Shown: in pieces, positions 52,237 to 53,182 of the stretch | Position numbering within the stretch: position 1 is the first letter of the stretch | Layout of the letters: each line of letters starts with the position of its first letter | Assembly (NCBI GenBank): GCA_000817105.1 | Contig: JUEP01000003.1 | Coordinates: forward strand, 62,001 to 126,000 | DNA length: 64,000 nucleotides | From: a marine actinobacterium MedAcidi-G3 | Lineage (GTDB): Bacteria > Actinomycetota > Acidimicrobiia > Acidimicrobiales > Poriferisodalaceae | Direction: 5' to 3' | Program-made: the position numbers and the translations under genes | Notes under the pieces: generated by a model | Told to the model about the DNA's origin: nothing | The model's database searches: none | What the model saw: only the letters and a program-made list of their open reading frames with translations

Positions 52237-52403
52237 TTGATTGGGTTTCAAAGGTTCACAGCGAGTGGAAGCGTTCTGGGGACCAGCTAACCTTCTAAGC
52301 TGCGTTACGAAGGCTTGCCTGAATTTATTCATTTGACCTGGCTCTGGCATTTGTGATGACCTTCAGTTAGTTAATCCTCTCAAGTAAAAGTTGTTTGAAA
52401 CTC

Positions 52404-52592
52404 ATGCGTAACTGCGTTCCTCAAAATTGGTCGTGCACATCACACACGACGGAGCGCGTCCTTGGTGCTACTGCTGAGGCTCGTTCGCGTATATCAACAA
52501 ACGCCAAGACCGGATTTGCTTCGATGCATCCAGGTACTTATTTCGCTGGGACTAAGCATCAGGTATGGCGGCCTCCAGAGGAGCAGATGTAG
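52404..52592 (+). CDS. Candidate leader ORF (uORF) of the WhiB7-like gene
   Basis: A 62-codon frame from the ATG at 52404 that encodes MRNCVPQNWSCTSHTTERV at its start and ends WRPPEEQM. I know no family. Its last codons contain GGCGGCC, which could pair with the 5' arm of the downstream hairpin, so its translation could influence that hairpin. It might be a leader peptide rather than a functional protein. No clear Shine-Dalgarno was found. Confidence 0.35.
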   Translation: MRNCVPQNWSCTSHTTERVLGATAEARSRISTNAKTGFASMHPGTYFAGTKHQVWRPPEEQM

Positions 52593-52607
52593 CTGCAAAA
52601 GCACATC

Positions 52608-52657
52608 AAAGCAATCCACTGTCTGGCCGCCGGTTAACCGGCGGCCTTAATGCTTTT
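52608..52657 (+). terminator. Candidate intrinsic terminator/attenuator upstream of the WhiB7-like gene
   Basis: Arms GGCCGCCGG (52625-52633) and CCGGCGGCC (52638-52646) enclose a TTAA tetraloop and form a perfect 9-bp GC stem. An outer AAAGCA (52608-52613) can pair with TGCTTT (52651-52656), and TTTT follows at 52654-52657. It lies 40-50 bases before the whiB start. The whole core is also a 22-bp DNA palindrome, so a protein-binding site is an alternative. Confidence 0.55.
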
Positions 52658-52696
52658 ATCCCATCAAATAGTCCTTATTCAGTTAACAGAAAGAAA

Positions 52697-53038
52697 ATGG
52701 AGAATCTAATGCTTGAGCTCCTTATTGAAACCGACGATGAATGGAACGTTGCAGGTCGATGTAATGACAACAACGGGACATTGACTCATTTGTTCTTCTC
52801 GGACAACACCAATCATCAAGCACGTGCAAAGGCGATGTGCTCCAAATGTTCCGTCTCCACTCAATGTTTGGAAGCGGCTCTCACCCGCAGAGAACTATGG
52901 GGGATTTGGGGGGGAGAGTTAATCGAGAATGGTCGAGTTGTGATTGGCAAGCGGGGACGAGGCCGGCCACGTAAGCAGCCACAGCCAGTCCTTGAGGTCA
53001 ACGAAGTCCCGATTCCGCCGGAATTGATTCCGGCGTAA
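52697..53038 (+). CDS. WhiB-family regulator with AT-hook, WhiB7-like
   Basis: A 113-residue [4Fe-4S] regulator. The four cluster cysteines are Cys22, Cys48, Cys51 and Cys57 (MCSKC...QCLEAAL). The beta-turn GIWGG at 69-73 is followed by a C-terminal AT-hook GKRGRGRPRK (84-93). This combination of WGIWGGE and RGRPRK is that of WhiB7, which activates intrinsic antibiotic-resistance genes in mycobacteria by binding AT-rich DNA next to the -35. The start is the ATG at 52697. An in-frame upstream start at 52565 would read through the hairpin and is less likely. Confidence 0.88.
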   Translation: MENLMLELLIETDDEWNVAGRCNDNNGTLTHLFFSDNTNHQARAKAMCSKCSVSTQCLEAALTRRELWGIWGGELIENGRVVIGKRGRGRPRKQPQPVLEVNEVPIPPELIPA

Positions 53039-53151
53039 CCGAAAAGAGGAGTTGTGCCTTTCCTTCTCCTCTGACAAACGACTGACGCTTAACCGCTGAG
53101 GGCCTCCGAAATGGCCGCCCGCCAGCACAACGTTAGGACTGGTTTGGTCGA

Positions 53152-53182
53152 GGAGCCCCCAGGTTAATTACCCGGGGGCTCC
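53152..53182 (+). terminator. GC-rich hairpin after whiB
   Basis: GGAGCCCCC (53152-53160) and GGGGGCTCC (53174-53182) form a perfect 9-bp stem with a 13-base loop, about 115 bases after the whiB stop and 60 before tlpA. There is no T-tract, so termination might depend on the stem alone, as in many high-GC actinobacteria. Confidence 0.6.

Follow-up and report, generated by a model that had tools for sequence, protein, structure and literature searches.

A predicted uORF-controlled attenuator ahead of whiB7 in a marine member of the Acidimicrobiia

The locus described here raises the question of whether the leader RNA of a WhiB7-like gene in marine Acidimicrobiia could respond to the progress of ribosomes, by the mechanism described for whiB7 and wblC leaders (PMC11550727; PMC13393426; PMC4128351). 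The Mycobacterium whiB7 leader carries an upstream open reading frame (uORF) and a Rho-independent terminator (Dinan 2014, PMC4128351), and in Streptomyces coelicolor wblC, as far as the account of Lee 2022 (10.1111/mmi.14834) relayed in PMC11550727, PMC7157823 and PMC13393426 goes, translation of the uORF favours the terminator and its inhibition favours an antiterminator; the switch has been reported to work in the Mycobacterium and Streptomyces groups (PMC11550727; PMC13393426). The stretch of DNA that was analysed, 64 kb in length and referred to as the window, comes from a draft genome of 2.1 Mb in 32 contigs, with MAGs labelled Acidimicrobiales or Acidimicrobiaceae, some of them Candidatus Microthrix, as the closest named relatives. 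Isolate names among these point to a marine origin, and the relatives place the window in Acidimicrobiia. We consider it highly probable that the whiB7 leader in the window (Table 1) is a transcription attenuator controlled by translation of its uORF.

Table 1. Features of the whiB7 leader and gene, in window coordinates
Feature	Position	Strand	Remarks
Probable whiB7 promoter: A/T-only TTTATT, 3 nt, -35 TTGACC	52324..52338	+	near-invariant in 20 close leaders
62-codon uORF, MRNCVPQNW...YFAGTKHQVWRPPEEQM-stop, ATG...TAG	52404..52592	+	gapless in 20 genomes
Antiterminator strand GGCGGCC, uORF codons 55-57 (W-R-P)	52567..52573	+	copy of terminator 3' arm
Antiterminator middle helices, 52576-52578/52619-52621 and 52580-52582/52615-52617	52576..52621	+	CAG/CTG here
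Stop-codon hairpin, GATGT..ACATC with inner GCT/AGC	52586..52607	+	straddles TAG 52590-52592
Terminator hairpin GGCCGCCGG-TTAA-CCGGCGGCC	52625..52646	+	stem kept across leaders, unique in window
Imperfect U-tract TTAATGCTTTT	52647..52657	+	GCTTTT conserved in close relatives
whiB7 Shine-Dalgarno GGAG	52699..52702	+	kept in 20/20 close leaders
whiB7 gene, 109 aa	52709..53038	+	WhiB domain, GIWGG, AT-hook RGRGRPRK

The gene product matches the Pfam family PF02467 (E=1.5e-14), and its best PDB match is WhiB7 of M. tuberculosis (7kif, E=4.7e-16), with WhiB1 and WhiB3 behind; the 7kif match takes in the part with the WGG motif and the AT-hook. A sequence-only reading of this DNA had called the gene WhiB7-like, which is borne out by the WhiB domain, the GxWGG motif, the AT-hook and the top PDB match, and by these signatures the gene is a WhiB7 orthologue.

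The promoter-like element TTTATT-CAT-TTGACC, about 66-80 nt ahead of the uORF, would suit a WhiB7-type promoter, with 3 nt between its A/T-rich box and its -35 sequence. In most leaders of the order, TTGAC is likewise preceded at 3 nt by an A/T-rich box, the corresponding promoter box of Mycobacterium-like leaders reads GAAAAT-CGC-TTGTGG, and a WblC box has been described (PMC7157823). Compared with GAAAWY, the window box TTTATT is an inexact match, with closer matches in other members. The position of the promoter predicts a leader of about 350 nt, like the mapped mycobacterial leader (PMC4128351). The element is the only exact match in its genome, where a search with the motif TTTATTCNTTTGAC returned one further match, with a mismatch; as this match is no better than that of a control pattern, it is not taken to indicate a regulon.

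The coordinates given for the uORF in the sequence-only reading proved exact, and the frame is constrained at the codon level. In 20 related genomes the ATG and the position of the stop are identical and zero indels occur over the 62 codons. The whole uORF has an omega of 0.39 and its last 20 codons one of 0.24, whereas the shifted frames give 1.09 and 1.12. Judged in this way, the uORF evolves as a coding sequence and its translation is predicted. The C-terminal consensus of the peptide is xYFTGxKHQxxRPSEEQM followed by the stop, and no strong Shine-Dalgarno sequence stands ahead of the window uORF. At 52579-52592 the uORF ends in GAGGAGCAG-ATG-TAG, where a start-stop pair closely follows a Shine-Dalgarno-like run. 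This arrangement is conserved in most close relatives, and the run may hold a terminating ribosome on the stop codon. Near codons 44-50 (52529-52555), a segment CCAG..CTGG reads CCGG..CCGG in most relatives, possibly a further upstream hairpin with compensatory change.

Downstream of the uORF and 62 nt ahead of whiB7 lies the hairpin, whose coordinates and T-rich tail TTAATGCTTTT had also been given exactly, and which is retained in 19 other Acidimicrobiales genomes. It is the sole perfect GC-rich stem of at least 9 bp on both strands of the window; first-order simulations yielded a mean of 0.15 comparable stems per strand, and a stem with an upstream 7-nt copy of its arm appeared at a frequency of 0.0 in 20 simulations. 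The hairpin plus the upstream arm copy is not a product of chance. A strict scan for promoters and terminators called neither, the terminator being missed because the T-run is interrupted; the stem and its retention support a terminator-type hairpin with predicted termination.

The segment GGCGGCC had been noted as identical to the 3' arm of this hairpin and able to pair with the 5' arm (52625-52631), and sequence and folding agree on both points. When the two states were folded, RNA ending at 52638 adopted the antiterminator around an inner stop-codon structure (z = -3.9), and RNA ending at 52659 adopted the terminator together with the same inner stop-codon hairpin (z = -3.5). The single competing pairing of 7 bp that had been proposed is thus real, but the predicted antiterminator is larger and encloses a conserved stop-codon hairpin, a part absent from the earlier proposal.

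Covariation among related leaders supports the competing pairing. A compensatory change in L096 and L024 gives GGCGACC with GGTCGCC, the middle helices appear as CGG/CTG and CGG/CCG in other leaders, and in six of the 20 close leaders a G-C pair of the stop-codon hairpin has become A-U by changes on both sides. Double-change cells number 7 for the antiterminator in 20 leaders (1.9 when shuffled) and 18 for antiterminator and stop hairpin in a set of 22 sequences (5.7 when shuffled; 0/500), counts which, given that related sequences are non-independent, are not to be read as probabilities. In an alignment of 44 leaders, which was fitted to a covariance model and is biased in the model's favour, all 8/8 pairs of the stop-codon hairpin have double changes, terminator and stop hairpin together have 113 double-change cells (30 when shuffled), and 97.3% of the terminator pair cells are kept (98.2% in 20 leaders). 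A helix between AAGC of the uORF and GCTTTT, present in the RNAalifold consensus, was rejected; it is invariant and without covariation signal, and distant leaders have no GCTTTT.

We suggest the following scenario for control of whiB7. A ribosome translating the uORF to its end would cover GGCGGCC and the stop-codon hairpin, in which case the terminator would form and transcription would end before whiB7. If ribosomes were stalled or short of about codon 52, the 3' segment of the uORF would be free to pair with the 5' arm of the terminator, enclosing the stop-codon hairpin, while the 3' arm is still to be transcribed, and RNA polymerase would read through into whiB7, the product of which would probably amplify the signal at its own promoter. 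With an in silico ribosome mask spanning -18 to +14 of the A site, the antiterminator survives with the A site at codons up to 50 and is lost only for codons 52-63; in the model, this is the geometry by which a ribosome that reaches the stop would promote termination. In the full-length RNA at equilibrium, the terminator prevails at every ribosome position, with an advantage of -10.4 kcal/mol in the window and a gap of -10.3 to -13.2 kcal/mol in Mycobacterium-like and Streptomyces-like leaders. Since the terminator has an advantage of about 10 kcal/mol in these groups too, in which the switch reportedly works, kinetics must decide between the two structures. We infer ribosome-dependent switching of the window leader, termination at the hairpin, autoregulation by WhiB7 and a response to ribosome-targeting drugs or amino-acid shortage; the uORF is probably a general sensor of slow translation.

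A uORF ending about 20-45 nt ahead of a GGCC-type hairpin is found upstream of WhiB7-type genes in the family, in most of the order's other families and in more distant groups. The three-part anatomy is common to the Mycobacterium-like leader L048, the gene of which closely matches M. tuberculosis WhiB7, and to L054 and L056, whose assignment as Streptomyces-like is our own deduction. When the sequence ahead of the arm is dinucleotide-shuffled for comparison, the unshuffled pre-terminator RNA folds better in 38 of 41 leaders of the order and phylum; at least 7 of 9 arm bases are paired into the uORF in 30 of the 41 (7.1 expected), and the duplex alone and the stop hairpin alone each reach p<0.05 in 23/41, with a possible bias from the hand-picked uORF frames of distant leaders. 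The antiterminator pairing is weak in L032, L053, L068, L071 and L072. Orthologue leaders keep the hairpin and the complementary segment in most cases, and this comparison of relatives favours the attenuator.

The R1 covariance model recognises one locus in the genome of the window, its second match being the antisense palindrome of that locus. It finds no match in the leaders L002-L006; other whiB-type leaders of the genome (L002, L003, L004 and L006 examined) are without a comparable hairpin. Among the relatives, 53 of 61 have R1 matches, the best match being the whiB7 leader where compared. Genomes with weak WhiB matches only (G012, G044, G047, G056, G058) gave no R1 match, and G020 gave only a weak one. 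Weak second matches in eight genomes were rejected as attenuators, as they are terminator-like and sit between convergent genes. In sister genomes (L099, L101-L107), conserved GGRCCGCCGGG-type terminators with weak R1 scores separate convergent genes for a probable transporter-binding protein and an acyl-CoA-dehydrogenase-like protein. Rfam at gathering score returned no family for the window, Mycobacterium-like, Streptomyces-like or other member leaders. Taken together, the coverage of the antiterminator (30/41 and 38/41 leaders), the masking at codons 52-63 and the single locus at whiB7 favour the attenuator.

Translation of the uORF could instead influence readthrough via Rho-dependent polarity or mRNA decay, not via alternative RNA structure. 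Translated leaders in Actinobacteria can work through Rho, and the weak U-tract here would suit such a route, but the stem is strictly conserved and the competing pairing covaries, so that we regard it as unlikely. We give somewhat less credence still to a reading in which the uORF is a small-protein gene like any other, ended by a terminator of its own, and whiB7 has its own promoter past the hairpin. While the uORF is under protein-level selection and the hairpin could simply end its transcript, conservation is loose in the N-terminal half of the peptide and poor in the roughly 50 nt from hairpin to whiB7 except for the Shine-Dalgarno sequence, the strict scan found no promoter there, and the 3' arm copy and the stop-codon hairpin would be left without a role. 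Similar GGCCGCCGGG hairpins between convergent genes elsewhere in sister genomes would suit a third reading, in which the hairpin serves the adjacent genes as a bidirectional terminator and has no part in whiB7 control, but this is highly improbable given that the flanking genes are co-directional here and that the element remains upstream of whiB7 across the order and is missing from genomes with weak WhiB matches only.

Read as an attenuator controlled by its uORF, the window leader resembles that of Mycobacterium whiB7 in its predicted length, in its uORF and in having a stem-loop with a T-rich tail placed between that uORF and the gene, and in L048, too, the uORF repeats the terminator 3' arm (as TCCGTGG) and has a stop-codon hairpin. 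It differs in its arm, GGCGGCC with W-R-P codons as opposed to TCCGTGG, and in its peptide. The Streptomyces-like L054 and L056 fold as the window leader does, whereas the terminator of S. coelicolor wblC has GGGCCGCGGAACCC and its uORF stop, TGA, is part of the stop hairpin's 5' arm. As in the trp, ilvB and drug-sensing ABC-F attenuators, a ribosome on a leader peptide would pick terminator or antiterminator, but the window uORF is 62 codons long and has no run of one amino acid. The earlier suggestion that the same logic would be found here with unrelated sequence holds for the peptide and the arms, which differ, but not for the 5' arms as a type, which share GGCC-N-CGG-type sequence, nor for the geometry, which is the same; the suggested extension of mycobacterial whiB7 control to a distant lineage agrees with the three-part anatomy predicted in Acidimicrobiia. 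What is known is the kind, the uORF attenuator of whiB7/wblC; what is new is a putative example in marine Acidimicrobiia with a better resolved antiterminator.

The distribution of these leaders suggests that the attenuator is probably ancestral in Actinomycetota. We lean, with some reserve, towards the view that whiB7 leaders form one RNA family, absent from Rfam, which descends from an early Actinomycetota ancestor, combines a uORF copy of the 3' arm, a covarying stop-codon hairpin and a terminator, and would sense ribosome progress in a general way in soil and pathogenic lineages and in uncultured marine ones alike. This would extend the drug-resistance switch of Mycobacterium and Streptomyces to marine Acidimicrobiia, and suggests that the sensing of ribosome stalling through WhiB7 is ancient and not an invention of soil bacteria or pathogens; the phylum-wide covariation of the antiterminator, including the stop-codon hairpin, predicts which bases of the leader matter.

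At 53145-53176, about 110 nt downstream of whiB7, a strong hairpin GGAGCCCCCAGGTTAATTACCCGGGGGCTCC probably marks where the whiB7 transcript ends. Some genomes of the order, such as G042 (L037/L057/L063) and G172 (L038/L058/L059), have two or three WhiB7-like genes; in G042, two of them stand in tandem, and the uORF-terminator leader is seen ahead of one.
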